DNA of 64,000 bases, taken from the NCBI GenBank assembly GCA_946550725.1, contig CAMNQX010000005.1, positions 1 to 64,000 on the forward strand. The letters run 5' to 3'. Positions 9,384 through 46,448 of this stretch are shown in pieces; position 1 is the first letter of the stretch, and every line of letters begins with the position of its first letter. Position numbers and translations under genes: made by a program. The stretch comes from an uncultured Clostridia bacterium. GTDB lineage: Bacteria > Bacillota > Clostridia > Oscillospirales > Oscillospiraceae. Below the pieces are notes generated by a model. That model did not search any database. It was not told where the DNA came from and saw nothing but the letters and a program-made list of their open reading frames with translations.

Positions 9384-10228
9384 CCATGGCTGACATCATC
9401 TCCGTCACCTCTCTGGACGACCCCCGGGTCGCCCCCTTCGCCCACCTCACCGAGCGGCAGCTTCGCTCCAAGGTGGAGCCGGCCATGGGCCTCTTCATCG
9501 CCGAAAGCCCCAAGGTCATCCACCGCGCCCTGGACGCGGGGTATGCGCCGCTGAGCCTGCTCATGGAGCGCCGCCACATCGACGGCCAGGGAGCGGAGGT
9601 CATCGCCCGCTGCCAGGCCCTGGCGGGAGAACATTTTCCGGTCTACACCGGCGAGGAAGCCGTACTGGCTCAGCTGGCGGGCTACCCCCTCACCCGGGGC
9701 GTTCTGTGCGCCATGCGCCGCCCCCCGCTTCCCGATGTGGACGAGCTGTGCCAAACCGCCCGGCGGGTGGCCGTGCTGGAGGACATTGTGGACCACACCA
9801 ACATCGGCGCCATCTTCCGCTCCGCCGCCGCTCTTGGGATGGACGCGGTGCTGCTCACCCCCTCCTGCTGCGACCCTCTCTACCGCCGCTCTGCCCGGGT
9901 GAGCATGGGCACGGTGTTTCAGGTGCCCTGGACCCGGCTGGGGGACGACCCGGCCGACTGGCCCCAGAAGGGGCTGGAGCGTCTCCACGCCCTGGGCTTT
10001 CTCACCGTGGCCATGGCCCTGCGCCACGACACCATCGACATCACCGATCCCCTGCTCACCGGGGCGGACAAGCTGGCTATCGTGCTGGGCACCGAGGGGG
10101 ACGGCCTCAAGGAGACCACCATCGCCCAGTGCCGCCACACGGTGAAGATCCCCATGGCCCGGGGGGTGGACTCCCTTAACGTGGCCGCCGCCAGCGCGGT
10201 GGCCTTCTGGGAGCTGCGGGCCAGGTAA
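9380..10228 (+). CDS. TrmH/SpoU-family RNA 2'-O-methyltransferase
   Basis: 282-aa SPOUT-class methyltransferase. An N-terminal substrate-binding-like part contains GLFIAESPKVIHRALDAG. The C-terminal catalytic knot shows the three family motifs: DHTNIGAIFRSAAALG, KLAIVLGTEGDGL and IPMARGVDSLNVAAASAVAFWE. The ATG overlaps the stop of the ECF gene (ATGA), so the two are co-transcribed; a second ATG is two codons in. Its last codons and TAA stop lie inside the left 17-bp direct repeat of the prophage, so insertion keeps the protein intact. RNA target unknown. Confidence 0.9.
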   Translation: MTMADIISVTSLDDPRVAPFAHLTERQLRSKVEPAMGLFIAESPKVIHRALDAGYAPLSLLMERRHIDGQGAEVIARCQALAGEHFPVYTGEEAVLAQLAGYPLTRGVLCAMRRPPLPDVDELCQTARRVAVLEDIVDHTNIGAIFRSAAALGMDAVLLTPSCCDPLYRRSARVSMGTVFQVPWTRLGDDPADWPQKGLERLHALGFLTVAMALRHDTIDITDPLLTGADKLAIVLGTEGDGLKETTIAQCRHTVKIPMARGVDSLNVAAASAVAFWELRAR

Positions 10229-10238
10229 CCCCAGAGAC
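10222..10238. repeat. Left 17-bp direct repeat (attL core or target duplication)
   Basis: CAGGTAACCCCAGAGAC is identical to 51860-51876. It contains the TAA stop of the upstream methyltransferase. The two copies bracket the 41.6-kb phage, so this is either the recombination core or a long target-site duplication. Confidence 0.9.
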
Positions 10239-10278: not shown

Positions 10279-11352
10279 TTAGAACAGGCTTTTATGGAGC
10301 GTAATCCCGGCGGTCGCAGCCCACTCCATGAGGGCCCGATCGGCGCACCGCCCGCCGAGGACTTCCCGCGGGTAGTTGTTGATCCACCGCTCCACCCATG
10401 CCACCCGCTCGTTTGAGATGGTGGAGAGGTTGGTCCCCTTTGGGATCCACCTTCGGATCAGGATGTTGGCGTTCTCGTTTGATCCCCGCTCCCAGGAGGA
10501 GTACGGGTGGCAGTAGTACACATGGGTCCGGCGCATTTTCGTCAAGCACGACCGCTCCATCCCTTCACAGTCCTGGAACTCTGAACCATTATCTACGGTT
10601 ATCGTCCGAAAGAGCCTCCGGAACATTCTGGAGCCCAGCTTGCGCTCCATCCGATCTATTGCTCCCACCACGCTTTCCGTGGTCCCGTCCGGTATCTTGA
10701 TGATGATTTCTTTCCGGAGCGCCCGTTCCGTGAACACCAACAGTCGGCTCACGTCTTTCTTCCCGCTCACAACGGTATCCATCTCCCAGTCCCCGAATTG
10801 TTTTCGCAGGTTGATCTCCTCCGGGCGGTCGTCAATGCTGTCTCCGTTTGGCAACCTGGCCGCCCGGACTTTTTTGTACTTCCTCTTCCGTTTACCGCGG
10901 CGCGGCAGGTCCTTGTTGGTCAGCCCCCAGAACACGCCCTTGTCGATGTAGGAGTATACTGTCCACTTTGAGAGCGTGACCGAGAACTCCAGACCGTCCT
11001 CCTCAATCTTCTCCAGCGCCGCCCTGGGCGAGTACCCCTCGTTTGCGATCTTGCTCTGTATGTACTCAGCCAGAGCGTAGTCACTCCCGATTTTCAGGGC
11101 TGGTCCCTTGGCGGCCAGCTCCGCTCGGTATTTGTCCTCCGCCACATCCGGGCAGTATACCTCCCGGTCTACCAGCTCCGTCGTTCTTTGGATGGCCTTC
11201 CCCCGCCGCAGTTCCCGGTATATGGTGCTGTTGTGGACGTGCAAAGCGTCTGCAATCTCCTGGACCGATTTGCGCTCCTTTCTCATTTTCTCAATCTTCA
11301 ATCTGTTTTTCCACGAAAGATGGCTGAACCGCCGCCCCTTTTCGCTTCCCAT
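10279..11352 (-). CDS. IS30-family DDE transposase, candidate phage recombinase
   Basis: 357 aa, typical for IS30 transposases. An N-terminal HTH_38-like region (LSWKNRLKIEKMRKE, then VQEIADALHVHNSTIYRELRRG) is followed by the catalytic core with DWEMDTVVSG (first Asp), ITVDNGSEF (second Asp) and SSWERGSNENANILIRRWIPKG (Glu), the IS30 signature order. The reading frame is intact. It lies 13 bp inside the left terminal repeat. No matching inverted repeat occurs on its other side, whereas the left terminus does match the far end of the phage, so it probably moves the whole phage. Expression is likely repressed through the operator at 11375-11391. Confidence 0.9.
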   Translation of the reverse strand: MGSEKGRRFSHLSWKNRLKIEKMRKERKSVQEIADALHVHNSTIYRELRRGKAIQRTTELVDREVYCPDVAEDKYRAELAAKGPALKIGSDYALAEYIQSKIANEGYSPRAALEKIEEDGLEFSVTLSKWTVYSYIDKGVFWGLTNKDLPRRGKRKRKYKKVRAARLPNGDSIDDRPEEINLRKQFGDWEMDTVVSGKKDVSRLLVFTERALRKEIIIKIPDGTTESVVGAIDRMERKLGSRMFRRLFRTITVDNGSEFQDCEGMERSCLTKMRRTHVYYCHPYSSWERGSNENANILIRRWIPKGTNLSTISNERVAWVERWINNYPREVLGGRCADRALMEWAATAGITLHKSLF

Positions 11353-11374: not shown

Positions 11375-11407
11375 GGGATAATATCCCATAATATCGTAGA
11401 ATGTCAA
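11375..11407 (-). promoter_or_regulatory. Transposase promoter with overlapping dyad operator
   Basis: Minus-strand TTGACA (11402-11407), an 18-bp spacer and TATTAT (11378-11383) precede the transposase. The -10 lies within the palindrome GGGATA-A-TATCCC (11375-11387). The 13-mer TAATATCCCATAA here recurs at 11788-11800, between the XRE regulator and the cargo gene, suggesting one repressor controls both. Confidence 0.65.
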
Positions 11408-11782: not shown

Positions 11783-11800
11783 TATGGTAATATCCCATAA
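11783..11800. promoter_or_regulatory. Dyad operator between the XRE gene and the cargo gene
   Basis: TATGG-N7-CCATA (11783-11799) includes the 13-mer TAATATCCCATAA, identical to 11379-11391 in the transposase promoter. It lies in the 146-bp divergent region and is a likely XRE binding site. Confidence 0.55.
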
Positions 11801-11856
11801 AATCACAGAAAAGGATAGAGTGCAAAGCACACGAACACAGAAAGGGGCCTGCAAAA

Positions 11857-12711
11857 ATGAAAAAAAACAACTTCCGCAGCTTTATCTCCGGCGTCCTGGT
11901 CACTCTGCTCTGCGTCAGCCTTATCAGTTCCGCCGCCGCCACGATCGGCCAGCGCACTCTAACGGCAAATTACAGAGATATTAAGATTGTGCTGGACGGC
12001 AAGCAGCTCGCCCCCAAAGACGCTACCGGCTCCGTTGTCGAGCCGTTCACCGTCAACGGAACCACATACCTGCCCGTCCGCGCCATAGGGGAGGCCCTTG
12101 GCCTCTCGGTTGACTGGGACGGCAGCACCAGCACCGTGTCCCTCACGTCCGCGTCGATGGAGCTGGAAACCTCGCAGCCCGCTCCGGCCGAGCCCACAGC
12201 GGACCAGGTGGCCCGCCGCGCCTCCGCCTATGCTTTCCTTCGGTCTTGGATCGACGCCAACCACAACACCACCTTGAATGGGAACCCCGCATACTCCGAG
12301 GACGCACACCAGGCCCGCGGAGATATTCAGTATTCACTTACCCTCGACAAGGCCGCCAACGATATTACTGCCAGGATCAGGTCCACGTCTTCCTTCGACG
12401 GCATAACCTCCTGCGTCTTTATTCGTCTCGCTCCGGACAGCCATGCCTTCCCGGTGTATCTCACTCTCTCCGCTCCCGGAGAGGAAGATCCGTTTTTTAT
12501 GGGCATGGGCGACGTGTCCGCTCCCGCCCTTTCTTCTGACAGCAGCTTTTCCTTCTCTGCCCACTCTGGTGACCAGGAGGCCGTCGCAGATCGGGAGGCG
12601 TTCACAAAAGACGCCCTTCTCGATCTTCTGTCCTTCACCAACAAAGTCTTTGAGGATCACGTCTACGGCGACTACACCCTGGCTGACTTCGGCTTCACTT
12701 CCCTTGACTGA
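11857..12711 (+). CDS. Secreted copper-amine-oxidase-N-like domain protein (phage cargo gene)
   Basis: 284 aa. A signal peptide is clear: a basic MKKNNFR start, a hydrophobic core GVLVTLLCVSLI and an SSAAA region. Residues about 40-105 match the Cu_amine_oxidN1 pattern often found in exported Firmicutes proteins: IKIVLDGKQLAPKDATG, FTVNGTTYLPVRAIGEALGLSVDWDGSTSTVSL. The rest (about 115-284) is an acidic, Ser/Thr-rich domain I do not recognise. It is the only rightward gene in the phage, with its own regulatory region and a strong terminator, so it looks like a lysogenic-conversion gene expressed from the prophage. Preceded by AAAGGGG. Function unknown. Confidence 0.8.
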   Translation: MKKNNFRSFISGVLVTLLCVSLISSAAATIGQRTLTANYRDIKIVLDGKQLAPKDATGSVVEPFTVNGTTYLPVRAIGEALGLSVDWDGSTSTVSLTSASMELETSQPAPAEPTADQVARRASAYAFLRSWIDANHNTTLNGNPAYSEDAHQARGDIQYSLTLDKAANDITARIRSTSSFDGITSCVFIRLAPDSHAFPVYLTLSAPGEEDPFFMGMGDVSAPALSSDSSFSFSAHSGDQEAVADREAFTKDALLDLLSFTNKVFEDHVYGDYTLADFGFTSLD

Positions 12712-12724: not shown

Positions 12725-12763
12725 AAAGGCCCTGGAGGTGCGAACCTCCAGGGCCTTTCTTTT
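12725..12763. terminator. Strong bidirectional terminator
   Basis: AAAGGCCCTGGAGGT-GCGA-ACCTCCAGGGCCTTT is a perfect 15-bp stem (12725-12758) followed by CTTTT. AAAA at the other foot gives a T-run on the minus strand. It ends both the rightward cargo gene and the leftward late operon. Confidence 0.9.
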
Positions 12764-15700
12764 AGTCGATTGTGGGCAGAGACAGCCCCAGCACGTCGTT
12801 CCAGTCGGTGTCGTCACCCTCCACCGATGGCAGGGACAGCCCCTCCAGCTCCTTCTCGTCCTCGGCGTTGAGGTCGTTGTAGACCTTGCGCCCCGTCTTT
12901 TTGCTGAACGGGTTGCTTTCCGGCTTCCAACTCTTGTTCTGGAGCTGCCACAAGATTGCCGCCTCCGTCTTGGTCAGCCCATCCATGGCCTTGATGGCCC
13001 TTTTCGCCTCGTCCTGGGTGGGGCTGGTGTCGTTGATGGCCTCCCGGCACTCCACATACATCTCCGGGGTAATGCCGTACCGGACGCCCACCTGGAGCCT
13101 TGCGTACTCGCTCTCTCCCATGACAGAGGACAAAGCCGCCATTTGCTGGTCTTGGCCCCTGGTTCCGTCGATGATTGCCCGGAACTTCTGGAGGTTGCTG
13201 ACCTGCTTTTTCCCTGCCTCCGGGGTCAGCTCCCCAATATCCTCCGCCAGAGACAGGGCGGCCTCGTTCCCCAGGCCCGCCTCTCTGAATTTGGAAAAGT
13301 TGGCCGAGTTGTCGCCGGATAGCACCTTCCATCCGATCCACTCCGCCACGTCCCCGGAGGCAGCGGCCTCTGCCACCCACTTGTCGGCAGCGTATCCCTC
13401 GAACAGCTCCGTCTTTGCCCGCTGGGCGGCGTAGTCGTAGAGCTTCTTGACCATCTTTGCGCGGGTCTCCTCGTCTGCCCGCTGGAAGGCCACGGAACCA
13501 ACCATGTCGTCCAACGCCCCCGCCACGCACTCTCTCCACACGCGGTCAAAGAACTGTTGCTGATATGCCCCCAGCTTCTTTTCTTCTCCGTTGACGCTGA
13601 CGCTGGACGGGGTATCGGTCGGAACCGCTCCGGTGTGGCCGTTCTCGTAGAGCTCCGCCAGGGTCTCCACCGTCTCGTCCTCGACCTTTCCCACGCGGTT
13701 GTCGAGGATGTCCCCAATGCGGGTCTCCAGGGCCCCGCCTTTGAGCCCTGACAGCTTCCCCTTGTTGGCGGTTGCCGTTGCGTCCTCGTATGCCGTGGCA
13801 AACTCCGGCGATACCCACGACAGCGCGCCCAGGGCGTAGGCCTTGATGTTGTTTGCGGGCACACCCCCAAGGTAGGTCGCCGCGGTCTCGCACACCTTCT
13901 CCAGCTCCCCCAGGTAGTCGCCCCCGTGCCTCCGGAGGTATTCGCCCAGGTCCCCACCCTTGGAGACCACATCGTAGCCCTCCTGCACGAGCTTCCCGAT
14001 GGCCGAGAAGGCGTCCTTTCCGTCCTCGAATAGGTCAACGATCTGGGTCACGCCCGGAGTTTCCACACCGTACCACTTGTCGCCCGTCACCACGCTCCCG
14101 ATGTACTCCGCCAGAATGTCTCCTCCGGCGATCATCCCGGCGTTGCTCTGGACGAAGTTCATGGTCGCCTGTGCCCCCGCCGATTTCCAGGTCAGCTCGT
14201 CCTCGTCGTCCCGGTATCTCTTGGCCTTGTTTTTCAGGAGCGCGTTAAGGAAGTTGATGGCCTCAATCCCCAGCCCAGCCAGGATCACGCCCACGACCGC
14301 CCGGCCTGCCTTGCCCCGCGCCCGCCGGAACTCGCCCTCCGATACCTTCCCGGCGGCGAAGTCCTGCTTGGCCCGCTGTGCCTCGGCCACCGTCTGCCGG
14401 AGCATATTGTACTGCTGGATCGGCACAGTTTTGAACAGCGTGAGCGCCCTGGTGATCTTGCTGTCCGAGCGCATGATCCCCGCTCGGTGCATAACGTCGT
14501 ACATAGGCTGGGACCTGGAAACGGCCTCCTCAAAGGCCTTTGCGACCTCCTTGTAGTAGGGGCTCTCCCCGGCGTCGATCTGCTCCTTGGTCCCCAGCTC
14601 CAGCTCCGGGTGCTCCCGGCTGACCATGTTTTCAGCCCAGCCCCAGATACTCTTGACGGTCCAGCCGTCCATGGCGGTGATGGCCCCACCGCCGAAGGTG
14701 AACTTCAAGACCTTGTTCTCGGACAGCTTGGATGGGTTGTTTTTGAGCTGGGCCGTCTCCGGCGTGGCGTAGCCCATGAGCCGGTATGCCAACTCGCTCG
14801 TGTAGGTGTTGATCAGGGCGTCCGGCGTTTTCAATGCCTTGGCGATGTTAGGAATGTTCTCCCAGCCCAGGTAGGTCCCCGCCAGCGGGAAGGACATGGC
14901 CTGCTTTAGGACGATGGAGGGATTGAACCCAAAGACCGAGGAGATGTACCGGGAGAGGGCGGTGTCCAGGATCCGCTCCGCGGTATCCCTTTTTCTCACT
15001 TTCCCGCCTTGCAGCTCGTTCAAAAGGTTGTCGATGTACTTCTTTCCCTCTTCCCCCCACTTGTGGGTGATGACGTCCCCGGTGCTGTTGTTCTTCTCTC
15101 TCCAGTTCAGGAGCGTCTGCCAGTTGCGGGCGGGGATCGCCATTCCCACGAAGCGGGCGGTCTGGTCCGAGTGCCGCTCAAAGGCGTCGAAGGCGCTGAT
15201 GTTGTAGCTCGGATTGACCGCGTACTGCCTCGACTTCATGTGGCCCACTCCCTCCGCCGTGGTGTCAAAGACGCCGATGGTGGTGGTCGTGTAGTTCTGG
15301 TTGGTGAAGATAGGGGCGTAGTTCTTGCTCTGGGCCTTGTCGTATCCGTAGAGGATGTTGGAGACCCGGTTGATCTCTCCTTTGGCGAACTGATTGTAGT
15401 ACCCCTCCAGCAGACGGGCCAGCTCCATCTCCTCCTCGGTGAGGTCGGAGACCAGCGCCTTCACCGTCTCCGGCGCCAGGCGGATCGTGGTGCCCTGGGC
15501 CAGGGCCTCCTGCCGTTGCCCTTTGGAATAGAGCTCCTTGTCTACAAAGGTACGGCCTCCGGTCATGTGCCGTAGGTTGTCGGTGTTCTTGCTCTCCAGG
15601 TAGAGCTGCACCTTTTGGGCCGGGGTCATATACACCTTGACGGTTTTCCCAAAGAGCGGCTTGTCGCCCTTTCCCAGCTCCAGCAGCTCCGGGACCTCCA

Positions 15701-18700
15701 CCTCGTACCAGATGGCATCCTTCCCTTGGCCGTCCGCCGTCTTCACCCAGTCGGCCCGCTCGGTCAGGAACTCCTCCAAAACCCTCTGGGAGCGCACTTT
15801 GTAGTTCCGGACAGCCCTTTCGCCCTGCTCCAGTTGCCGGGCCATGGACATCCACGTTCCGTCCTTGCGCCACCCAGCCATTCGCTCCAGGACGTTCATG
15901 GGCGTCAGGTGCTCCATGTTGAGGAAGGCGTCCAGCTTCTTCCCGGTAAAGTTGCCCTCCGCCGTCTCGATCTCCGTCTTCGCCTCTGCGTAGACCTCCG
16001 CAAAGAGGCGGCGGGCCTCGTCGTTGATCACGTTGTTCCGGTTATAGAACTCCGTCCGCAGACCGATCGCCGCCTTGTAGAGGTCCTGGAGAGCTCCGAT
16101 GTCCATGTCCGCGATCTTGTCCCCGTCCAGCCGGGCCACGATCCGCTCCAGCTCCGCCGACGGGAGGAAGTTGGGGTCGGAGGCCTTCGCCGCCTTATAC
16201 ATCTCGGCCAGGTCTTTCCAGGTGGCCCCGTGCTTCTTGCTCCAGTTGAGCTCGTTGGCGGCGCCCACGGCGTAGATGTCGATGTCTCCCAGCACCTCAT
16301 CCCAGGCTGCCCGCAGCTCCTCCGGCGCCCGGAAACGGTTTCTGGAGAGCCATTGGAGTTGTTTGAGGGTCCTTTGCTGGAGGTCTCGCAGTTGCTGGCG
16401 CTCCCGTTGCCGCGCCGCCATTTCCACCCGCTCGGCCCGCTCCTGGGCGATTTTTACCCCCGTGCGCTCCCGCAGCTTGATCTCCAGGTTGGCCTTTTCC
16501 GCAAAGGTCCGCAGGGCCCAGTCCATTTGTCGCTCCATGCCGTCCAGGAACTCGCTCTCCGGGATGAACTCCTGCTTCGCCAGGCGCGCGGTGTACTCCG
16601 CAAGGCTCATTTTCTCATCCTTGCCCTCCTCGGCAAGCTGCACGACCCGCTCCAGGATACTCTTGCTGTCCGTCTCCTCTCGGTCGAACACGCCGGGCAG
16701 GGTGTCCGCAAGCTCCATGTTCCACACGTCCACATGGTTGTCGCTTCGGTCGTTGGTCAGGTAGACCCCCGCGGCGAAGGCCCGCTTGCGGAAGTCGTTC
16801 CAGTCGTCCCCAAACTCCGCCTTCTCGCTCTCGGTGACGTAGACCCGTCCACCAACCACAGCCTGGCGTCCGTCCCGGTAGAACTCGTCCGCCTCTACCG
16901 TCATAACGCCCTCGCTATACATCCGGTCAAATAAGGCGTTGCGGTCCTCCTGGGTCAAGCTACCCTCCCGCAGGAGCCGGTCTGCGTATCCGTCGATGAT
17001 GGCTCCGATCTCCGCCTTGGCTCCCTCCGGGATCGAGAAGGTGGAGAGCATGGTCCGCCGCAGGTCGCTCTTGGCGATGATGGGCTTGCTGGGCGCCACC
17101 GCCTTCGGCTTCTTCCGTTTCTTGTCCTCCTCCGCCTCGGTCTCGTCCTCCACGGAGAACTTTGCGTTCTCCACGCTGTTGACCTTCTCCAGCCGGTCGG
17201 TGTCGTCCCCGGCCTGGTAGTCCACCACCCGGACCCCGGCCTCCTCCAGCTTGCTCCGCAACTCTGCTCCGGTGTCCTCCGGCACGATTGCGGCCAGCAC
17301 TTCATCGAAACGCACCGCCCGCTCCGGCTTCGCCTCGAAGATGTTCACGGGCATTTTGTTGATGTCACCAAAAAGGTCCACAGCCCGCCGGGCCATTTCC
17401 TCCGTGACCTGGTAGCCCGTCCCTTTGAACTCCCGGATCACGCTCTCGGGCGTAAACTCTCCGCCTCTGGCGGCCTCCACCAGAATTTCTCCGATGGTGT
17501 CCATGTCCATGAATTCGTTGCTGTACTGGCCGTGAGGCTTGCTCTTGTAGATGTCTCCCATGATGGCATAGAGCCGGTCGTGGAGTGCGTCCGTGTTCGC
17601 GTCCGCCTGCTCCTGGGTCATGTGTTGCAGTTTCCCCTCGGCCCGGTGCATATCTTCAATGCTTCCAAACCGCTCCGCCGTGACCGCCCGCAACGTTTTC
17701 ACGCCATAGAAACCGGCCACATTCCGGTTGTCGCCGCCTTCTCCCTCGGAGATCATCACCTTGGCGATGTTCTCCAGCGTTGCCGGGATGTGGGTCTGCC
17801 TAAAACTCTTGCGGTCTCCCGCCCTGGTGTACGGGTCAACCCCCGTGTTGATCCCGCTGCTCTTCTCGATCCCGCCAAACAGATCCTGGAGCCAGTTCTG
17901 GTAGTCCTTCGGATCCACCATCCCCCGGATGGCTTGCTCGGTTTTCCCGGTGTCCTCTCTGGTCGTCCTGGTCTCCGGTCCATTTTCGAGGTATTTTCTG
18001 GCGTTAAGTAGGATGGTCCGCAGTTCTACGTTGTCCAGCACATTCTCGATTTGCCCCTCGGAATAGCCTTTCTCCTGGAGGAAGGAGCTATAAGCGGCCT
18101 CCAGCTCCGTCCCATGTTCCGCGATCCACTCCTGCCACCATAGCCGTGTCGGCCTGCTGTCAGGTCGTGCGTTTCGCACCATGTCCTCGCCCATAGTAGA
18201 GATCAGGTGTTCACTAAGTTCGATGTTCCAGTCGTCCATCCTGGTCACGGTTTCCTCCATCACCGGATCCGGTAACTGCATACCGTTGTCCAAAAGGTAG
18301 ACCTTCATCATGTCCGGGTCGTCCTGATACTTTGCGAGGATCGCCGCCTCTCCGCCTTCCCGGTTGATCTGGTCCTCCGGGTAGTTGCCCCACGGGTAAA
18401 GCACGTCCACGTCCTGCCGCCCAAATTTTTTCTGGAGCTCGTAGAACTTCTTGTGCAGCCGCTCCGCAACGTCCTCGTTGACTTCATACTCCGTTGCCGG
18501 GAACGTAGGCGTCCAGGCGTCGGCGGAGTAGACCATGTTCCGCCGGTCAAATTTCGGGTCGATGGTGGTCTTATCCATCACCAGCGTAATGTCCCCGAAG
18601 TTGGTGTGTGGGATGTCCGCCTTGGTAACGGCAATACTGGGCATGGGAAAACCGCCCAAGGCTAGAGCTTTGAGCAGCTTATCAGCCGTCAAGTTGTGTA

Positions 18701-21700
18701 GGGCCACAAGGTTTTTGGTCTCCTCAACCGGTTCCTCTAGGGAGAACTTTTCTTTCGGCTCCCGCTCGGTCGGGTTTTCTGCGCCGTCTACGTCCTCGGC
18801 CTCCTCGCCTCGTCCCGCGATCTGGTCCTGCACTTCCTCCTGGAAAGTCCTGGGCAGTTTCCGCGCCTCCAACTCACCATGGCGCACCACGTCCCCAAAC
18901 GGCACTCCCTGGATGTTGACATTTTGGCCGTTGTAGGATATACTGCCCATAGAGCCACTCTGTTGCAGTTCGATGGGCCCATGCAAGCCCACCGTCCGAA
19001 GCAGCGGAATGGTTCTTTTTTTGTCTGCGTGAAGGATCTCTCCTCCCTTGATGTAGTTTAGGGCATTGTCGCGGGTGTAGGCGCTGTTCACCTTCTGCAT
19101 ATCAGCGACGACAAAGCCTCCGTCTACCGGACGCAGGTCAAGGACGGACATGATAGGCTGCCCATTCGTTGCTCTAAAGCTCCCAAATACCACCAGCCGC
19201 GTGTTTTGCCCGCGCCGATTGCTCCCCTGGCTTTTCATCACCAGCACCGGATCGTCCAGAATTTCCGGCACCCGCCTGATCTCTTCCAGGGTCATTTCCG
19301 GGTGATCTTCAAGGATGGTGGAGATTTTGTCTCCCTCCATGAAAATGTCGGCCTCTACGGCTCCCAGTCCTTGCAGAACGTCGCCGGTGCTTCCGAGGAT
19401 GAAACGCTCACCCTCCGGGCGCCCCGTATCATCCCACTCTTTCAGCTCTTGTCCAAAACTCTCGTTGACGGAGTATTGTGCCCCCGCGCTTTCCGCGGGC
19501 GGCCCCGTCCTCCGGTCGGTGGCGGCGGCGTTCTCCTGGCTTTGTCGGCCCACGCCCCGCTCTTCCATGACGGTCTCCATCGTCTCGTTGTACTGCTCCG
19601 CGTGGGCACCGAAGGCGTTGATCCCGGCGTAGGCGTCGGCAAAGATTTCTTCCATTATGGCGGCGTAGGCGGCGTCGATGGCCGCACCGTCGGCGTTGGC
19701 GGGAAGGTCGATCACGCCCCGCAGCTTTTCGATGTAAGTGTTGACGATCTTCCCGAACTCCTCCGGCGTGAAACGCTCCGTGATCCTCGCCTCGATCTCC
19801 CGCACCAGCCCCGGCGTCTGGAAGGCCTTGTCGTGGAAAATCTCATGGTCGGCAATCTGATCCGTGGTCAGCCGCATATGGTCCGCCTGGAGGATGATCC
19901 TGCCGTCCTGGGTATACACCCCCCGGACCCGTGTGGTTCCGCCGCTCCTGGTGCGAATAGGGACGGACCCCAGCACATAGGTCACGCTCCGCCCGGTTTC
20001 CCGTTGCACCCGCTCGGCGGTGGAGCGCATACCGGCGTCCCAGTCTCCCTCCTCCAGCACCGTCACAGAGGGAGTATCCGTACCCATAGTAAGGCCCAGG
20101 CCCTCCGCCGAGCTTACCCGCGCCCGCCGTAGAGCCTTTGCATAATTTTGCCTTTCAACTGCAATTCTGCCTTGTTCAGCGGCGCCGCCGGTTTGGACTG
20201 TGCCTCCTGCCAGTCTGCCGCTTTGCTCTCCGGCACCCGGACCATAAAGCCGTCCGGCGTCTCCATCATGTAGGTGGTCTCCTCCCTGGGTCGCTTGTTG
20301 TTGCTGTCCATCTTCCAGCACCGTCCTTTCCATAGTTTGCGGCGCGTCTTGCCGCCCCATATCCTCCTGCACCTGGGTCTCCGCGCCTCGGCGGGCCTCT
20401 TCCGTTCCGGCCCACTCTACGCCCTCCGTCTCGATCGGAGCTTGCACCCTCTGGCTCTCCGTGGTGATCTGGGCGCTTTGCGCCGTCTGCTGGTCGCTCT
20501 CGATCACGCCCGCAGGCTCCGGGCGCACCAAATCCACCGGCTGGTCGGTGTTTACCGTCTCGCCGGTGGGGTGTTCAGCGGTTTTAATGTTCGTCTCCGC
20601 CTCCTGTTGGGCGGCCTCGGCCTGTTCCTCCTGTTCAATGGTCAGGACGTTCTCCCGATAGAGCTTCCCCAGGTCTTGGGCGGTGATGGTCTCTCCGGCC
20701 TCCACCTTTGCCTGGAGCTGCTGGGCGATCTGAAAACTCTTTGTGGACTGGTCGCTCTCCAGCCCCGTCTCAATGATGGCCTGCACCACCTCCGGTCCCA
20801 TGCTCTGGAACTCCTTGCCCACCTTGCCGGTCTGGTAGTAGTTGATGGCGGAGCTGACCGCGACATTTCCGCCGGACAGCACACCGCCAGACAGAGCGCC
20901 GCCCAGGAAGTCCAGCCCCATAGTGAGGGCCTGGTCCTGGACCGCCCGCCAGAAGGCCTCGTTTTCACTTATGCCCTCCGCTTCGTAGGCGGCTACCGCC
21001 TGGGCCCATTGGCTCTTGTCCTTTGCGATCAGGATGTCAGCGAAGAGGTTGATGGCGTCGCTCCCTACCTCCTCCGTTCCCTCGGTAAAGGCGTTCTTGA
21101 TGATGTAGCGGATCGCTCCCTGTTCCCACTTGCCCTCCAGCAAGGCGTCCAGCGAGAACTTTTCCGTGACGACCTCCGCGATCCCCGCGATGGTCCCCAG
21201 AGCAAAGGCCTGGTCGTCGGAGAGCCCCCGGTCCTTTGCCTCGATGGTGGCGTCCGCCGCCGCCCCGGTGCCCATGATGGCGAGGGCCACCGTCTGGTTT
21301 CCTCCACTCACAGCGGTGGTAAATAGGAAGTCGCCCATGCTCATGCCCGTTTGGTATAGGAACGAGGCGGTTTTGCCCCCGAACTCATGGCCCCGGTCCA
21401 CCCAGTATTTCTCAATGTCCTGCACCACCTGGCCCCGGATGGCCGCCGGGACGTAGCTAAAGGAATTGTATGGCGCGTTCTGGTCGATCTTCCCGCTCCC
21501 CAGATATTCCCCCAGTTGCAGGGCATAAGAAATACCTTTTGTCGGCGCCATGAGGACGCTGAACACAGAGGCTCCCACCGGGTCCTCCTTTGCCCACTCT
21601 GCCCACTCCGCCTGTGTCGCCTCCCGCTGGCGGCGGTACAAGTCGCTTTTGATGAACTCATAAAACGCCCTCGCCTCCTCGGGAGACCGCGTGGCGTAGA

Positions 21701-22880
21701 TGTAGTTGTAGGTGGCGATCTCCTCCGGGCTCATGTGCTCCGCCTCTCGGTTCCCACCTACCACGCTGTCCACCATATGCCCCAGCGCGCCAGCACCCGC
21801 GCCGTAGGTGTTGTCCTGGAGTTTCAGGTAGGCCCCTGCGGCCTCTTGCCCGTTGACCCATGCGTAGAACGGGTCTTTCCAGCCGCTGTCCTTATATACC
21901 GGCGGGGCTTGCTCGTCTAGGAGGCTGGTCCAAAACGTGGCCCACTCGTCCAGGTCCTCCTCCCCCTTGGTCGTCAGCTCCTTGTTGGGCCTGCTCCCGT
22001 AATAGAACTCCTGGGCCAGATGGAGCTTTTGGGCATAAGCCTCCGCCTCCGCCTGGGTGTTGAACTTTCCCAGGTACTCGCCGGTGGCGTGATACTTTGC
22101 GATGGCCTGCTGGTCGGACATTCGGTACGGCGTCCCGCCGTCCCCGAATGCGATGGTGGGGATCACGATTTCCTTTCCGTCCTCGTTGATGGTGATACTC
22201 TGCACCGTAGAGATGGACCCGTCCGCGTTTTTGAGCTGCGGGCGGCTGTATAGGTCGATGTTGCCAGCGCCATACTGCCCCAGCTCTCGGTCGGCGGCTC
22301 CCAGCTCTGTGTAGCCCTTCAACTGCTGGTAGGTCTTGTACTCCTTCTCGTCTGCAAACTGCCCCCAGAACTCCCGATCGTTTTTGAGCCCTGCTCGGAC
22401 GTTTTTGAGATAGGAGATATTCTGCCGTACCCCCTGGAGGAATTTCCCCGTGGACCCAGCCCCGAAGGCCCCGTCGTAAAGCTCTCTGTTCGCCGCGAAG
22501 TGGTCCTGGATGGAGTATGCCCGCCCCAGCAGCTCGTCGATCTCCGCGTCCCTCGCCGTCTGGTACGCCGTATAGGTCTCCACCGGCTGGTAGGTCTTGT
22601 CCATCCTCTCCTTGTCCCCGGAGATCCGTTTAGAGAAAGCGTCGATGTCGTTGAGCCAGGGCTGCAGGTCCTCTCTGGGCGTCCTCGCCCCGCTCGTGAC
22701 CGTCCGCACCATCGGCTCCTGACCCCTGTGCTGTCTGCTCCACTCGGAGAAAGAGGGAGACCCCCCGCCCGTCTGAACGACGGACGTGGGGGTGATCCTC
22801 GTCTCTTGCTGTGTGACTTTCGGCTGGGCGATCTCTCCCGTCCTGCCCTTGTTTTTCTTGGTCCACTCAGCAAAGTTCAC
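12762..22880 (-). CDS. Giant phage polyvalent protein (3372 aa) with zincin and nuclease-like domains
   Basis: One uninterrupted 10.1-kb ORF at the end of the late operon. Near residues 205-300 is a podovirus virion-protein segment (NADGSISTVQSI, then KEIVIPTIAFGDGG and YHATGEYLGKF). Next are hydrophobic helices, a Gln/Glu-rich linker, then a zinc-metallopeptidase-like HEIFHD with a distal EEIFAD near 1012-1100. A region near 1157-1330 (GERFILGSTGDVLQGLG, then MKSQGSNRRGQNTRLVVFG) resembles BECR-fold nuclease-type polyvalent domains. A conserved LVALHNLTADKLLKALALGG domain starts near 1390. After coiled-coil-rich parts there is an LPD38-like segment near 2650 (FGFNPSIVLKQAMSFPLAG). The overall pattern matches phage polyvalent proteins thought to be injected with DNA. 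Exact domain families are inferred by eye. Confidence 0.8.
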   Translation of the reverse strand: MNFAEWTKKNKGRTGEIAQPKVTQQETRITPTSVVQTGGGSPSFSEWSRQHRGQEPMVRTVTSGARTPREDLQPWLNDIDAFSKRISGDKERMDKTYQPVETYTAYQTARDAEIDELLGRAYSIQDHFAANRELYDGAFGAGSTGKFLQGVRQNISYLKNVRAGLKNDREFWGQFADEKEYKTYQQLKGYTELGAADRELGQYGAGNIDLYSRPQLKNADGSISTVQSITINEDGKEIVIPTIAFGDGGTPYRMSDQQAIAKYHATGEYLGKFNTQAEAEAYAQKLHLAQEFYYGSRPNKELTTKGEEDLDEWATFWTSLLDEQAPPVYKDSGWKDPFYAWVNGQEAAGAYLKLQDNTYGAGAGALGHMVDSVVGGNREAEHMSPEEIATYNYIYATRSPEEARAFYEFIKSDLYRRQREATQAEWAEWAKEDPVGASVFSVLMAPTKGISYALQLGEYLGSGKIDQNAPYNSFSYVPAAIRGQVVQDIEKYWVDRGHEFGGKTASFLYQTGMSMGDFLFTTAVSGGNQTVALAIMGTGAAADATIEAKDRGLSDDQAFALGTIAGIAEVVTEKFSLDALLEGKWEQGAIRYIIKNAFTEGTEEVGSDAINLFADILIAKDKSQWAQAVAAYEAEGISENEAFWRAVQDQALTMGLDFLGGALSGGVLSGGNVAVSSAINYYQTGKVGKEFQSMGPEVVQAIIETGLESDQSTKSFQIAQQLQAKVEAGETITAQDLGKLYRENVLTIEQEEQAEAAQQEAETNIKTAEHPTGETVNTDQPVDLVRPEPAGVIESDQQTAQSAQITTESQRVQAPIETEGVEWAGTEEARRGAETQVQEDMGRQDAPQTMERTVLEDGQQQQATQGGDHLHDGDAGRLYGPGAGEQSGRLAGGTVQTGGAAEQGRIAVERQNYAKALRRARVSSAEGLGLTMGTDTPSVTVLEEGDWDAGMRSTAERVQRETGRSVTYVLGSVPIRTRSGGTTRVRGVYTQDGRIILQADHMRLTTDQIADHEIFHDKAFQTPGLVREIEARITERFTPEEFGKIVNTYIEKLRGVIDLPANADGAAIDAAYAAIMEEIFADAYAGINAFGAHAEQYNETMETVMEERGVGRQSQENAAATDRRTGPPAESAGAQYSVNESFGQELKEWDDTGRPEGERFILGSTGDVLQGLGAVEADIFMEGDKISTILEDHPEMTLEEIRRVPEILDDPVLVMKSQGSNRRGQNTRLVVFGSFRATNGQPIMSVLDLRPVDGGFVVADMQKVNSAYTRDNALNYIKGGEILHADKKRTIPLLRTVGLHGPIELQQSGSMGSISYNGQNVNIQGVPFGDVVRHGELEARKLPRTFQEEVQDQIAGRGEEAEDVDGAENPTEREPKEKFSLEEPVEETKNLVALHNLTADKLLKALALGGFPMPSIAVTKADIPHTNFGDITLVMDKTTIDPKFDRRNMVYSADAWTPTFPATEYEVNEDVAERLHKKFYELQKKFGRQDVDVLYPWGNYPEDQINREGGEAAILAKYQDDPDMMKVYLLDNGMQLPDPVMEETVTRMDDWNIELSEHLISTMGEDMVRNARPDSRPTRLWWQEWIAEHGTELEAAYSSFLQEKGYSEGQIENVLDNVELRTILLNARKYLENGPETRTTREDTGKTEQAIRGMVDPKDYQNWLQDLFGGIEKSSGINTGVDPYTRAGDRKSFRQTHIPATLENIAKVMISEGEGGDNRNVAGFYGVKTLRAVTAERFGSIEDMHRAEGKLQHMTQEQADANTDALHDRLYAIMGDIYKSKPHGQYSNEFMDMDTIGEILVEAARGGEFTPESVIREFKGTGYQVTEEMARRAVDLFGDINKMPVNIFEAKPERAVRFDEVLAAIVPEDTGAELRSKLEEAGVRVVDYQAGDDTDRLEKVNSVENAKFSVEDETEAEEDKKRKKPKAVAPSKPIIAKSDLRRTMLSTFSIPEGAKAEIGAIIDGYADRLLREGSLTQEDRNALFDRMYSEGVMTVEADEFYRDGRQAVVGGRVYVTESEKAEFGDDWNDFRKRAFAAGVYLTNDRSDNHVDVWNMELADTLPGVFDREETDSKSILERVVQLAEEGKDEKMSLAEYTARLAKQEFIPESEFLDGMERQMDWALRTFAEKANLEIKLRERTGVKIAQERAERVEMAARQRERQQLRDLQQRTLKQLQWLSRNRFRAPEELRAAWDEVLGDIDIYAVGAANELNWSKKHGATWKDLAEMYKAAKASDPNFLPSAELERIVARLDGDKIADMDIGALQDLYKAAIGLRTEFYNRNNVINDEARRLFAEVYAEAKTEIETAEGNFTGKKLDAFLNMEHLTPMNVLERMAGWRKDGTWMSMARQLEQGERAVRNYKVRSQRVLEEFLTERADWVKTADGQGKDAIWYEVEVPELLELGKGDKPLFGKTVKVYMTPAQKVQLYLESKNTDNLRHMTGGRTFVDKELYSKGQRQEALAQGTTIRLAPETVKALVSDLTEEEMELARLLEGYYNQFAKGEINRVSNILYGYDKAQSKNYAPIFTNQNYTTTTIGVFDTTAEGVGHMKSRQYAVNPSYNISAFDAFERHSDQTARFVGMAIPARNWQTLLNWREKNNSTGDVITHKWGEEGKKYIDNLLNELQGGKVRKRDTAERILDTALSRYISSVFGFNPSIVLKQAMSFPLAGTYLGWENIPNIAKALKTPDALINTYTSELAYRLMGYATPETAQLKNNPSKLSENKVLKFTFGGGAITAMDGWTVKSIWGWAENMVSREHPELELGTKEQIDAGESPYYKEVAKAFEEAVSRSQPMYDVMHRAGIMRSDSKITRALTLFKTVPIQQYNMLRQTVAEAQRAKQDFAAGKVSEGEFRRARGKAGRAVVGVILAGLGIEAINFLNALLKNKAKRYRDDEDELTWKSAGAQATMNFVQSNAGMIAGGDILAEYIGSVVTGDKWYGVETPGVTQIVDLFEDGKDAFSAIGKLVQEGYDVVSKGGDLGEYLRRHGGDYLGELEKVCETAATYLGGVPANNIKAYALGALSWVSPEFATAYEDATATANKGKLSGLKGGALETRIGDILDNRVGKVEDETVETLAELYENGHTGAVPTDTPSSVSVNGEEKKLGAYQQQFFDRVWRECVAGALDDMVGSVAFQRADEETRAKMVKKLYDYAAQRAKTELFEGYAADKWVAEAAASGDVAEWIGWKVLSGDNSANFSKFREAGLGNEAALSLAEDIGELTPEAGKKQVSNLQKFRAIIDGTRGQDQQMAALSSVMGESEYARLQVGVRYGITPEMYVECREAINDTSPTQDEAKRAIKAMDGLTKTEAAILWQLQNKSWKPESNPFSKKTGRKVYNDLNAEDEKELEGLSLPSVEGDDTDWNDVLGLSLPTID

Positions 22881-22895: not shown

Positions 22896-24572
22896 TTACT
22901 TCGCCTTGGTCTCCAGGCAATACTGGACGTAGGCGGTGATGTAGTCGGCGTAGGTTTCGTATTCGCCCAGAATTGGGTCTCCCTTCCCGGTTCTCTTGTA
23001 GGCGGAGCGGCGGGAGCTCCATTCCCCGCTGGTGTACGGCGTTCCTGGATCCACGCCCTGTTGCCGCAGGAAGTGGATGGCGCTGTCGTAGGAGCTGAAC
23101 TTCCTGGGCGTGTCGTCTACCTTGGGCCCTCCCAGGTCCCCCTCGTCCTCGCTCTCCTCCTCCCACGTCTGGTAGTCGTCCCACAGTCCAGAGGAGGAGT
23201 TAAACCCGTACCGCTTGTAGTTGTCCACCTGGGCCAAAAAGCTCTTTGGCCGCCCACTCGCCTTAGCCGCAGCGAAGAGGCCGTCGTAGTCCATCTTGCC
23301 CCCCAGCAGGTTCTGCTGGGTGTTGTTTCCGTTTGCGATCCTCTTGGCCTCTGCTTTCTCCTGCTCTTGCCGCTTAAAGGCGGCCACCAGAGCGGAGACG
23401 TACTCGTTGGAGTACCCCGCGGCGTCGATCATCGCCTGGCTGGGTGTGCCTCCAGCCTGGATGATGGCGTCCACCTGGGCCCGCATAAGATCCCTCTGTT
23501 CATCCGCTTCCTCCCGCTGGAACTTTCCATGGACACCCTGGGCATACTCGTCTGTGAGCCCCGCCGCGGCCAACAGCTCTTGGCTGGGTAATCCCCCCGC
23601 CTGGAGGATAGCCGCCACCTGCTCCACGGCGTTGTCCCGGTTCCACCCGGCATTGACCCCCTGGGCGTATTCTCCGGTGAGCCCCGCCGCGGCCAACAGC
23701 TCCTGGCTGGGTAATCCCCCCGCCTGGAGGATAGCCGCCACCTGGTTCACGGCGGTCTGCCGCACCGTCTCGCCCCGCTGGTAGTCTCGCTCTTCCAGCC
23801 GGTCCGTCCGGGCCAGCTCCTCCAGGTAGCGGCCATAGTCCACCGCGTCCTGGCCCTGGAGGGCGGAAAGCTGACCCTCCAGCACCCCCAACTCGTCCTT
23901 CCAGCCCTGCCGCCAGATACCTTGTTGCTCATTGATGGCCTGGAGATCCTGGAGGCTCATGTCGTGATCCTTGATGTACTTGCTGTACGCCTGCTGGTAG
24001 AGCGTTGGGATGATGTCGTTGAGCTGGGTGGCGTAGTAGTCGCCCGCTTGGGTGGCCGCGCCTACGGCGAAGGAGGAGGGCCGCCCGCCGGTGGCGGCGG
24101 AAGCCTGGCCGAGAGCGTTGGCGGTGGCCCGTTCGCCCTCCCGGAGATACTGCTTTTTATAGACCGGCCACAGCGGGTCCGTTTCCTTGCTCCAGGAGAA
24201 CTCCCCCCGGTTCAGGATGGCGTCGAGTTGCTTCTGCCTGGCGGCGGCGGTGGGATCCTCCGGAATGACGAAAGACCCGATCTGGTCCAGCTTGGCGTCG
24301 ATTTGGCCGGGGATCTTCCCGCCAGAGATGAAGTCCGACCCGTCCGCTCCGCCGGAGTAGTTGGCATAGCTGCCCCGGAGCTGGTTTGCCGTCTGGTTGA
24401 TCAGCAGACGCGCCTCGTCCGTAAGAGCCTTCCCATAGTCCTTTTTCAGGGACAGGATGGAGTAGCCGAACTCCGGATATTTCTTTGCCGTCTCCAGGTC
24501 CGCCTGGGAAAATTGCGATAGGAGGCCGCTGTTTTGCGCCTCCTTCAAAAACCCGTCATAAGTGAAAGCCAT
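22896..24572 (-). CDS. Putative internal virion/ejection protein with tandem repeats
   Basis: 558 aa, next to the giant polyvalent gene (15-bp gap). Largely alpha-helical and Ala/Gln-rich, with GQASAATGGRPSSFAVGAATQAGDYYATQL near the middle, a motif style seen in podovirus internal proteins. Residues about 275-400 contain three copies of a 40-aa unit (AAILQAGGLPSQELLAAAGLT); two are nearly identical at the DNA level. The C-terminus (DGLFAAAKASGRPKSFLAQV) also recurs in phage proteins of Clostridia. No enzymatic motif seen. The ejection role is inferred from its position between the tail and polyvalent genes. Confidence 0.6.
   Translation of the reverse strand: MAFTYDGFLKEAQNSGLLSQFSQADLETAKKYPEFGYSILSLKKDYGKALTDEARLLINQTANQLRGSYANYSGGADGSDFISGGKIPGQIDAKLDQIGSFVIPEDPTAAARQKQLDAILNRGEFSWSKETDPLWPVYKKQYLREGERATANALGQASAATGGRPSSFAVGAATQAGDYYATQLNDIIPTLYQQAYSKYIKDHDMSLQDLQAINEQQGIWRQGWKDELGVLEGQLSALQGQDAVDYGRYLEELARTDRLEERDYQRGETVRQTAVNQVAAILQAGGLPSQELLAAAGLTGEYAQGVNAGWNRDNAVEQVAAILQAGGLPSQELLAAAGLTDEYAQGVHGKFQREEADEQRDLMRAQVDAIIQAGGTPSQAMIDAAGYSNEYVSALVAAFKRQEQEKAEAKRIANGNNTQQNLLGGKMDYDGLFAAAKASGRPKSFLAQVDNYKRYGFNSSSGLWDDYQTWEEESEDEGDLGGPKVDDTPRKFSSYDSAIHFLRQQGVDPGTPYTSGEWSSRRSAYKRTGKGDPILGEYETYADYITAYVQYCLETKAK
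23421..23750. repeat. 120-bp period tandem repeat inside the ejection-protein gene
   Basis: Two near-identical blocks start near 23561 and 23681, differing at a few bases over at least 60 bp (CCGCCGCGGCCAACAGCTC...). A third, diverged block lies near 23440. Each codes for the 40-aa unit around AILQAGGLPSQELLAAAGL. Confidence 0.85.
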
Positions 24573-24585: not shown

Positions 24586-26217
24586 TTACTGTCTCCCAGG
24601 TTTAGATTTGAGCTCCGATCCAGCGTAGAACTCCCGGACCAGAGAATAGACCCTGCACCCTCCGGTGCCTTCCAGCTTCATCCGGTAGTGGTCACCTCGG
24701 CGTGGGATGATGGGCAGGTAGTAGGACCGCTTCGCCCCCTCCCCCAGAGCCGAGCTGACCTTCTGCCACTCACCGTCCGTGTCGAACTGGAGCCACACCT
24801 GGACCTCCGCGCCCTCGTCCAGCTCCAGCCTGATCTGGATTTTGGAGACCCCCTTCTTGTTGGGGCTCCCCTCGGTGAAGTCTCCAAACTCCGCCTTCCA
24901 GGAGAAGGAGCCCTCCCAGCCCTCGGCGTCCGGCTCGATCCCCTGCGGCCTCCCCACGGCCCAGATGTCTCCTTCGCCGGAGAGGAGGTATAGGTTTCCG
25001 CCCCACCTGGCGAAATGGGTGGCGTGGGTCTCGTCCTCGGTGTTCCACATCCCCGTCTGGGTGTCGTAGACGTGGAGCCCCCAGCCCCCGTTCTCGTCCT
25101 GCATACTCACGAAGTATTTGAGCCCGTCAGACCCGGCCACGGCGTTTTTCTTCCGCTCCAGCCCGAAGGCCTGCCCGACCGGCTGCGGGATCCCGCCGGA
25201 GTATGCTACGATCCCGGCGCGGGAGAGATAGAACAACGTCTCCCCGGCGATGGCGAGGCTCCCGGCGCTCCCGTCCGCCACCCCCAGGGTGGCGCTCCCC
25301 ATCACCTCGAAGTTGGAGGGCATGGATCCATAGACCTTGTAGATGTGGTCCTCCTTGAAAAAGACCGGGTAGCCCAAAAAGGAGATACAGCCGGTGAACT
25401 CCCCGGCGCTCCCCGTGTCCACGGCAAAGCTGTCCGTCTCCACGCCGTCGTAGACGTTCCAGTTGAAGATGTCCCCCAGCTTGGAGGCGTAGATGGTGTT
25501 CCCGTCGCAGCCCCACAGCCGGTTCTCGTTTTCGCAGATAAAGCGGAGGTCCGGGACCGTCCGCTTGATGGATAACGTCCCGTTCTCGGTGTAGGGCGTG
25601 TCCGCGTCCTTGCCGTCCAGCTTGAACACATACTCGTAGAAATAGAGCTTGTCCCCGTCGATCTCCCGGATGATAGGTGTCTTGTTGTTCTCCGGGTGCT
25701 TTGTGCAGCCGGAGATGGTCACGGCGTCGCCCGGCTTGAAGTAGTCCGCCCAGTTCACCCCCGGCGCGTGGATGGTGTTGGCCTCCGCGTCCTCCTCGAA
25801 CAGCTTGCCGTCCTTGAATGTCAGCACATTCCCGGTCCACTCCGCCTCCAGGCTCCCAAATTCCCCGTTGACGGTGTTGAACCAGGCCTTGTCCGGCAGG
25901 ATCACGATGTAGGCGCCCAGGGCCGCAAAGGTCTTTTTCCCCGGCTTCACGGTGCCCTTGCGTTCCCCGTTGTAGAAAAAGCCGTCTCCATCCACCCAGG
26001 CCGGTCCGTCCCAGGAGAAGATACCCCCCGGCTCGTCCAGGGCCTTGTACTTGAACCTGGGCGACCGCGTGGCAAGCAGGGGCGCGTAGTCGCTGGTTAG
26101 GTTTCGCATATCCCACAGCTCTCCGTCCCCCGCGCCCTGGTTGTGGTTGAGACCTCCGAACTTCACCTGGCCGCCCTTGGTGATACCGTCGGCGTAGCGC
26201 ATGGCAGGCAGTTTCAT
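24586..26217 (-). CDS. Beta-propeller-like phage tail nozzle/stabilisation protein
   Basis: 543 aa. It starts MKLPAMRYADGITKGGQVKFGGLNH and contains repeated beta-rich blades such as LRFICENENRLWGCDGNTIYASKLGD, AGETLFYLSRAGIVAYSGG and ARWGGNLYLLSGEGDIWAVG. This pattern resembles the propeller-type tail-hub/nozzle or DNA-stabilisation proteins of P22-like podoviruses. It sits between the fibre genes and the ejection proteins, fitting a short-tail component. Its ATG overlaps the stop of the upstream gene. The assignment is by pattern only. Confidence 0.6.
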   Translation of the reverse strand: MKLPAMRYADGITKGGQVKFGGLNHNQGAGDGELWDMRNLTSDYAPLLATRSPRFKYKALDEPGGIFSWDGPAWVDGDGFFYNGERKGTVKPGKKTFAALGAYIVILPDKAWFNTVNGEFGSLEAEWTGNVLTFKDGKLFEEDAEANTIHAPGVNWADYFKPGDAVTISGCTKHPENNKTPIIREIDGDKLYFYEYVFKLDGKDADTPYTENGTLSIKRTVPDLRFICENENRLWGCDGNTIYASKLGDIFNWNVYDGVETDSFAVDTGSAGEFTGCISFLGYPVFFKEDHIYKVYGSMPSNFEVMGSATLGVADGSAGSLAIAGETLFYLSRAGIVAYSGGIPQPVGQAFGLERKKNAVAGSDGLKYFVSMQDENGGWGLHVYDTQTGMWNTEDETHATHFARWGGNLYLLSGEGDIWAVGRPQGIEPDAEGWEGSFSWKAEFGDFTEGSPNKKGVSKIQIRLELDEGAEVQVWLQFDTDGEWQKVSSALGEGAKRSYYLPIIPRRGDHYRMKLEGTGGCRVYSLVREFYAGSELKSKPGRQ

Positions 26218-29791: not shown

Positions 29792-30976
29792 TTACCTCCA
29801 TTCGTTGCTTCGGTTTCTCACGATCGTTTTGAGTTGCCGGATGTCCACCGGCTGAATGTACTTTTCCTGGATCTTGTAGCTGTCACAATGCCGGAGCTGT
29901 CCCGCCCGGCTCAAAAATCCCGCCGCCTGGTGGAAGGATATGTTCCTGCCCGTGGCCTGCTTCTTCTGGATCTTTCTGCTCTGCCTGGTCAGCCGCAGGA
30001 AGTTCCTGCCTCGCAGGGTGACGTGCTCGTGGTCAAAGCGGTATCCCACCGCCGCTACCCTCCGCGGGCGGCGCAGGCTCCGTTGCCGAGGCGGCAATAG
30101 GCGGTGTCTCTTTTCCGCCGCTCCCGTAAATCCGGTTCGGTATACCTGCCAGTTTCCCTTCATCTTCACGCCCAGGTCCGCCTCGAAGTGCCGCTCCAGG
30201 GCCTCGCGGGCCCGGTGCAGCTTGCGCTTGTTTGGGCCGAACAGGGTGAAGTTGTCCATGTGCCGGACCTCGTATTTCACGCCCGGATCCCGCTCCATCA
30301 GGTGGTCGGCCCGCTCCAGGTAGAAGTTCGCCAGCCATTGGTCCAGGTAAAACCCGATCTCGATACCCACCTTTCCACGGGCCAGGTCTCGGGCGGTCAG
30401 CCCCTTCTCCATGGCCCCGCCCAGTCCGCCGGGGTAGCACGTCACCTCCACCATCACCAGCAGCAGGAAGGTCTTGTCCTTGATCTTCCGCTCCAGAGCG
30501 TCCAGCAGACCCTCCAGCGGGATCGAGGGGTAGTAGTGCTTGATGTCCGCCTCCATGGCGTACTTGGTGCCCTTTGGGTCCTTCTGGAGCACCTGCATGA
30601 TCCGCTTCCGTACCCTCGCCCCGCCCCGGCCCGGAACAGAGGCGCAGGACCACGGGCTCATACCCCGCATGAGAACGTCCTGCATGGCCGTCACCGTGAG
30701 CTGGTGCATGATTGCGTCAGGGAAGAAGGGGATGGAGGATATTTCCCTCCACTTCTCGCAGTTCGGGTCGTAGATCGTTCTGTGGGTCGGCTGGCGCGGG
30801 GTGAAGTCGTGGTTCCTCACGATCTCCACCATCCGCGCCGTGTAACCCTCCACGTCCTCCAGGACCTGCCGCACACCCCGTCGGCGGCGTTTCCCTTTGG
30901 CGGCCTTGACGATACACCGCCTCACGAAGTCCGTGTCCTTCATTCGTTCATACAGAAAACCCACTCGTTTCGGCAT
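29792..30976 (-). CDS. DGR-type reverse transcriptase with atypical catalytic motifs
   Basis: 394 aa from ATG 30976 (MPKRVGFLYERM), preceded by AAGGAGG; the track's start 28 codons earlier lacks one. RT palm motifs are present: YAMEADIKHYYPSIP near 140 (motif A), GIEIGFYLDQWLANFYLE near 207 (the QG/SQ region diagnostic of DGR RTs, with DQ in place of SQ) and YEVRHMDNFTLFG near 237 (YxDD as HMDN). The first catalytic Asp of each is retained. A basic C-terminal thumb follows. The gene lies immediately downstream of the TR. It is predicted to make adenine-mutagenised cDNA from TR RNA for retrohoming into the fibre gene. No accessory Avd-type gene was recognised. Confidence 0.9.
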   Translation of the reverse strand: MPKRVGFLYERMKDTDFVRRCIVKAAKGKRRRRGVRQVLEDVEGYTARMVEIVRNHDFTPRQPTHRTIYDPNCEKWREISSIPFFPDAIMHQLTVTAMQDVLMRGMSPWSCASVPGRGGARVRKRIMQVLQKDPKGTKYAMEADIKHYYPSIPLEGLLDALERKIKDKTFLLLVMVEVTCYPGGLGGAMEKGLTARDLARGKVGIEIGFYLDQWLANFYLERADHLMERDPGVKYEVRHMDNFTLFGPNKRKLHRAREALERHFEADLGVKMKGNWQVYRTGFTGAAEKRHRLLPPRQRSLRRPRRVAAVGYRFDHEHVTLRGRNFLRLTRQSRKIQKKQATGRNISFHQAAGFLSRAGQLRHCDSYKIQEKYIQPVDIRQLKTIVRNRSNEWR

Positions 30977-31107
30977 TTTCAAATGCCTCCTTGTTTGCCT
31001 TCGGTGCCGTTCAAATCCTCGCGGCTTACTAGGCCCCGTCCTGTGCGGCAAAATTTTCACCTAGGGGTGAGGAAAAGTCTACGCATTGGTGTCGTGGGTG
31101 AACAAGA

Positions 31108-31383: not shown

Positions 31384-31388
31384 ACCCC

Positions 31389-34140
<2,752 letters not shown>

Positions 34141-46439: not shown

Positions 46440-46448
46440 AACTCCTCC

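Follow-up and report, generated by a model that had tools for sequence, protein, structure and literature searches.

What is the 3372-residue protein encoded at positions 12762–22880 (minus strand) of the window, the 64,000-nucleotide stretch of an uncultured Oscillospiraceae genome analyzed here, and what might it do for the phage that carries it? An earlier note, made from the letters alone, took it to be a phage polyvalent protein, a single open frame filling a quarter of the phage and combining virion-type sequence with a zinc-peptidase motif and nuclease-like parts. The frame is indeed single and uninterrupted, beginning with a GTG start codon after a purine-rich stretch that resembles a ribosome-binding site (AAGGGAGGAAAAGCACC-GTG), while the plus strand across the same interval carries many stops. 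Since the 3372-codon open frame is accompanied by two Pfam matches above their cut-offs and by a match to the 3513-position profile PHROG 22978 with an E-value of 1e-209, it is not a product of chance. The surrounding element is bounded by a 17-bp direct repeat (CAGGTAACCCCAGAGAC) at 10222–10238 and 51860–51876, which encloses a span of 41.6 kb (10239–51859). The giant gene measures 10.1 kb, or about 24% of this span, and "a quarter of the phage" is therefore correct; 40–43 kb is also a frequent size among related IMG/VR contigs.

The element is a short-tailed-type prophage. On the same strand upstream of the giant gene lies a late region encoding the small and large terminase subunits (large subunit at 40612–42126, PF04466, E = 2e-46), a P22-like portal protein (38434–40599, PF16510, PHROG 156), the major capsid protein (35678–36682, PF25209, PHROG 371), a collagen-like tail protein, a holin, a member of an internal virion protein family (24586–26217, PHROG 511, E = 5e-85) and a 558-residue protein that matches no family (22896–24572). 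The giant gene sits directly downstream of these virion genes, and is followed on its 3′ side by a terminator-like hairpin and a gene on the opposite strand (11857–12711). The late region also harbors a diversity-generating retroelement (29792–31545), composed of a reverse transcriptase gene (29792–31060, minus strand), a template repeat (31104–31242) and a variable repeat (31407–31545) located 3′-terminally in the collagen-like tail gene; the two repeats mismatch at 11 positions, 10 of them template adenines. The early region (45078–48963) holds a radical-SAM-like gene and two DNA-methyltransferase-like genes, as judged by eye from their translations.

The ends of the element have features of their own. 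A 14-bp terminal inverted repeat (TTAAATGCAGAAAA) lies just inside the direct repeats. A gene for an IS30-family transposase occupies 10279–11352, and about ten relatives have homologues 44–65% identical to it on the downstream side of their giant gene. Because of this recurrence, and because no tyrosine or serine integrase was seen, the transposase probably serves as the phage's integrase, in line with what has been proposed for the Faecalibacterium prophage Lagaffe. Near the opposite end, at 51501–51803, is encoded a small protein resembling only the helix-turn-helix N-terminus of IS30-like transposases. Two near-identical 23-bp repeats beginning TAATATCCCATAANATC, of which none would be expected by chance, separate the transposase gene from the opposite-strand gene (11379–11401 and 11788–11810), and are possibly repressor or transposase sites. 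An empty integration site was not found in same-genus genomes, where three stretches were read and none had the M50 gene beside the rRNA-methyltransferase-like gene.

The N-terminal portion of the giant protein has the character of a virion component, as had been claimed. Residues ~194–300 (21981–22301; this and all following segments of the protein are on the minus strand) are 44–50% identical in tblastn comparisons to a segment common to podovirus internal-virion and DNA-transfer proteins, in Zobellviridae, SPN1S-type and Rhizobium phages, including those of Klebsiella phage Klyazma (annotated as IVP-C-like), SPN1S and Bas106. This segment is followed by an N module (residues 321–800; 20481–21920), delineated by profile mapping and corresponding to positions 243–662 of PHROG 22978. 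The middle of the protein is matched in 31 of 301 same-family genomes, and alignment-based scans recovered 43 genome loci, mainly from Oscillospiraceae and Lachnospiraceae with some from Bacteroidales (including the isolate Millionella massiliensis), together with 78 viral loci, whereas single-sequence scans of viral contigs with the same middle region yielded one relative or none. Cultured strains carrying relatives include Oscillibacter sp. ER4, Flavonifractor sp. An100 and Faecalibacterium prausnitzii APC923/61-1. GenBank phages contain no near full-length homologue, and the C-module matches there are two unannotated faecal contigs.

Relatives were surveyed in a set of 83 distinct giants of at least 2300 residues (2.3–5.4 thousand residues). 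The N module is present in 55, the C module in 56, MuF_C in 16 and PBECR5 in 77, the last count partly reflecting selection, as most giants were found through PBECR5. Related giants, over 80 in number, follow a fixed layout: an N module, then an HExxH protease, interchangeable enzymes and a C module. Other enzymes are found in the interiors. An ART-PolyVal domain occurs in 7 of 11 scanned giants; LPD3, LPD23, PBECR2, PBECR3, RadC, M23 and LPD38 each occur in one or two; and MuF_C precedes PBECR5 in some proteins and comes after it in others. Modular exchange is also evident from pairwise distances of the N, PBECR5 and C modules, which are nearly uncorrelated (rho 0.10–0.16 across 35 giants). 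The window protein itself is 58% identical to one relative (L037) in the N module and 58% identical to another (L156) in the C module. These comparisons indicate that enzyme cargo is freely swapped between related phages.

The cargo of the window protein consists of two predicted enzyme domains. The first, the BECR-nuclease-like segment of the earlier note, is identified by Pfam as MuF_C (residues 1188–1289; 19014–19319; PF18819, E = 1e-12, 48.5 bits against a cut-off of 27.6). Its AlphaFold2 (AF2) model consists of helices followed by four strands, with His1193 at a helix end and Ser1266 in strand 4; the serine is conserved in all nine aligned sequences, and the histidine varies among relatives. 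The second, PBECR5 (PF18814, E = 6e-57, 193.6 bits against a cut-off of 25), is matched by the Pfam model over residues 1377–1570 only. The sequence LVALHNLTADKLL, containing an LVALHNLT motif, had been read as a domain in its own right; it does belong to a genuine Pfam match with a BECR annotation, but constitutes the beginning of PBECR5 and not a separate domain. Across 79–85 divergent sequences, H1395 (99%), S1415 (99%), T1457 (100%), E1849 and K1851 (100% each) and E1860 (99%) are conserved, and N1448 is likewise invariant or nearly so. These positions cluster at both ends of a ~530-residue stretch, the last three lying outside the Pfam model, and both halves occur together in nearly all relatives (119 and 112 matches, the remainder mostly lost at contig ends). 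Judged by this co-conservation, PBECR5 is a single ~530-residue module, longer than its Pfam model (residues 1377–1911; 17148–18752).

The AF2 model of this module is confident (pLDDT 93.6 over 551 residues, pTM 0.82), and a Foldseek search with it returned no solved structure at E ≤ 0.001; against viral models, it returned ten significant matches, all large phage proteins. Sequence searches of solved structures with the PBECR5, protease, MuF_C and C-module profiles gave no convincing match, and a search of a defence-system library gave none. By its Pfam label, PBECR5 is a predicted BECR nuclease. The published BECR description places the histidine in an N-terminal helix, followed by four to five strands with a Ser/Thr in strand 4, whereas in the AF2 model the invariant H1395 belongs to strand 1, and a helix and two strands come next; because of this discrepancy the "nuclease" label is to be taken only as a prediction. 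It is possible, if tentatively so, that PBECR5 is another kind of enzyme, for instance an ADP-ribosyltransferase-like one, that modifies proteins or nucleotides instead of cutting RNA. The strand position of the histidine speaks for such an enzyme, as do the invariant residues at both ends of the unit with their second set beyond the Pfam model, and the loosely similar strand–His–helix opening of DarT-type proteins. Against it, comparing the profile of the PBECR5 core to samples of DarT and ART-PolyVal gave nothing significant, the yardstick alignments being small and some of their rows wrong-strand, and Foldseek returned no significant solved fold. Profile comparison as a means of choosing between ART and BECR was set aside, being significant in neither direction with such weak yardsticks. 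An enzyme of this other kind would be compatible with the delivery scheme proposed below. In its fullest form, which we consider conceivable but doubtful, PBECR5 would be a new enzyme fold or a strongly remodeled ART-like one, not a BECR nuclease, and a protease of constant position would release it inside the host cell from a standard frame that delivers pluggable enzymes.

That protease is the zincin-like metallopeptidase module at residues 871–1134 (19479–20270). The zinc-peptidase motif HEIFHD spotted in the earlier note spans residues 1012–1017 (HEIFH, 1012–1016, at 19833–19847), and is followed by E1078 and D1082, residues of the third-ligand type that are invariant in 15 aligned sequences. 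HExxH is retained in 28 of 30 profile matches to the module, and the combined HExxH and E(E)xxAD signature is conserved in relatives. An AF2 model of residues 871–1372 (pLDDT 79.4, 26 sequences) shows a mixed sheet, the helix that carries HExxH and another bearing E1078, a predicted order of secondary structure that fits a zincin; the hallmarks of zincin-like metallopeptidases (MPTases), a sheet before HExxH and a glutamate in the following helix, are thus both found in the giant protein. Foldseek with this model returned no solved structure at E ≤ 0.001, and the best matches, to IrrE, DPP III and others, were weak (E about 1–3) for a query of 502 residues comprising two domains.

HExxH occurs in 75 of the 83 giants, where composition predicts 3.8 motifs across the entire set; its absence from the other eight implies that the protease is dispensable. 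Both flanks could be mapped in 49 giants; of their 53 HExxH motifs, 50 fall within the gap between the N module and PBECR5, a gap that makes up 21% of the length, and in 44 of the 49 the protease lies at the border of the N module and the enzymes. HELTH, HEAGH and HEIFH variants occupy this same position among relatives. An alternative, which we regard as unlikely, is that the zincin is an effector cutting host proteins and that the giant protein enters whole, without self-cleavage. Such an effector is permitted by Iyer et al. (2017), and MPTase-bearing polyvalent proteins of plasmids undergo transfer at full length; however, an effector would be expected to move like other cargo, and here the cargo is swapped and reordered while the protease stays at the N-module border. 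Because its place between structural and enzymatic parts is constant as the cargo changes, self-processing is the more likely role, and a position-fixed protease appears to make more sense as a processing device than as one more piece of cargo.

Beyond PBECR5, the C-terminal region begins with a segment at most 64% identical to its closest relatives (residues 1916–2380; 15741–17135) and ends in a poorly conserved tail (residues 2871–3372; 12765–14270), neither of which matches any family. Between them lies the C module (residues 2381–2870; 14271–15740), matched by PHROG 28077 and PHROG 22978, large, conserved and devoid of enzyme families. The LPD38-like part once proposed here does not hold up, as Pfam LPD38 matches neither the giant protein nor any of 37 C-module sequences; LPD38 is present somewhere in one related giant. 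Given such structural-type ends and such a C module, and given that the MuF_C of phage Mu itself is described as inactive, one might regard the whole as a purely structural ejection or tape-measure-like protein whose enzyme-like domains are inactive relics. This is improbable in view of the catalytic-type residues kept in the protease and across the 79–85 divergent PBECR5 modules, and of the recognizable ADP-ribosyltransferases inside relatives; the outcome named in the earlier note as telling against its reading, structural domains alone with unconserved catalytic residues, is not what was found. Less plausible still is a prophage-encoded polymorphic toxin aimed at rival bacteria and paired with an immunity gene, for although MuF-family toxins have their genes in the head regions of prophages (PMC11699363) and domain swapping is common to polymorphic toxins, the cargo here is in the middle instead of C-terminal, there is no N-terminal MuF domain, and the hairpin and opposite-strand gene stand where a same-strand small gene would be, with no convincing one seen after the giant gene.

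We favor, with a probability of roughly 0.6, the reading that a short-tailed temperate phage of Oscillospiraceae carries this polyvalent protein in its virion, with structural ends enclosing interior enzymes that a border protease frees to act at the start of infection. The ejection-protein-like segment and N module, together with the C module, would form a structural frame that is packaged into the head and leaves through the tail. Co-injection is likely, given where the gene lies relative to the virion genes, its ejection-protein segment and the N4 precedent discussed below. The HEIFH zincin would then cut its own polypeptide at the border of N module and cargo, probably on or after entry. 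Released in this way, MuF_C (a BECR-type, RNase-like domain) and the large PBECR5 module may act a single time, on RNA of the host or the phage or on something else met early. The earlier note had the protein acting on host defences or host proteins; no result of the analysis points to a particular target. Counting against the favored reading are the eight giants without HExxH, the strand position of H1395 in the PBECR5 model, the failure of both AF2 models to match a solved structure at E ≤ 0.001, and the missing sequence relation to the N4 protein. If the reading is right, a quarter of the phage genome goes into a device that delivers exchangeable enzymes just once. Iyer et al. raised the idea of self-cleavage, and the constant place of the protease, together with the boundaries at which cargo is swapped, opens it to direct testing in cultured hosts. 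PBECR5 presents a confident predicted fold without a solved relative.

How does this protein compare with known systems? The MuF polymorphic toxins (Apk2, Bxa; PMC11699363) share the setting of prophage head-region genes with swappable enzyme domains, but the giant protein lacks a MuF domain, carries its cargo internally and has no immunity gene that could be found. PHROG 22978 matches the N module, then MuF_C and PBECR5 and finally the C module, just as they follow one another in the window protein; the profile has no functional annotation and does not match residues 1916–2380 or 2871–3372. The polyvalent proteins of phages, whose features were described by Iyer et al. (2017; PMC5512222), likewise bring several disparate predicted activities together in one very large virion-region polypeptide, with recurrent zincin MPTases, PBECR and MuF_C cargo and extensive domain mosaicism. 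The window protein, in turn, unites at least two domains of disparate predicted activity (the zincin-type module, MuF_C and PBECR5). It differs in its inventory of domains, which showed no methylase, helicase or ParB, and in the fixed layout of N module, protease, cargo and C module within a lineage of short-tailed gut phages. As the polyvalent class was already known and an existing PHROG profile covers this architecture, the giant protein belongs to a known class, and its domain content, gene neighborhood and cargo swapping among relatives bear out the original assignment. The closest working precedent is the virion RNA polymerase (vRNAP, gp50) of Escherichia phage N4. No sequence relation is detectable between the two in any module, and the giant protein contains no RNA polymerase. 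The N4 enzyme is a 3500-residue protein of a short-tailed phage, packaged and injected, with its enzyme in the middle and with N- and C-terminal domains credited with genome injection and encapsidation (PMC4496689, citing unpublished data), and it, too, bears an HExxH-type motif, HELVH, at residue 2228.
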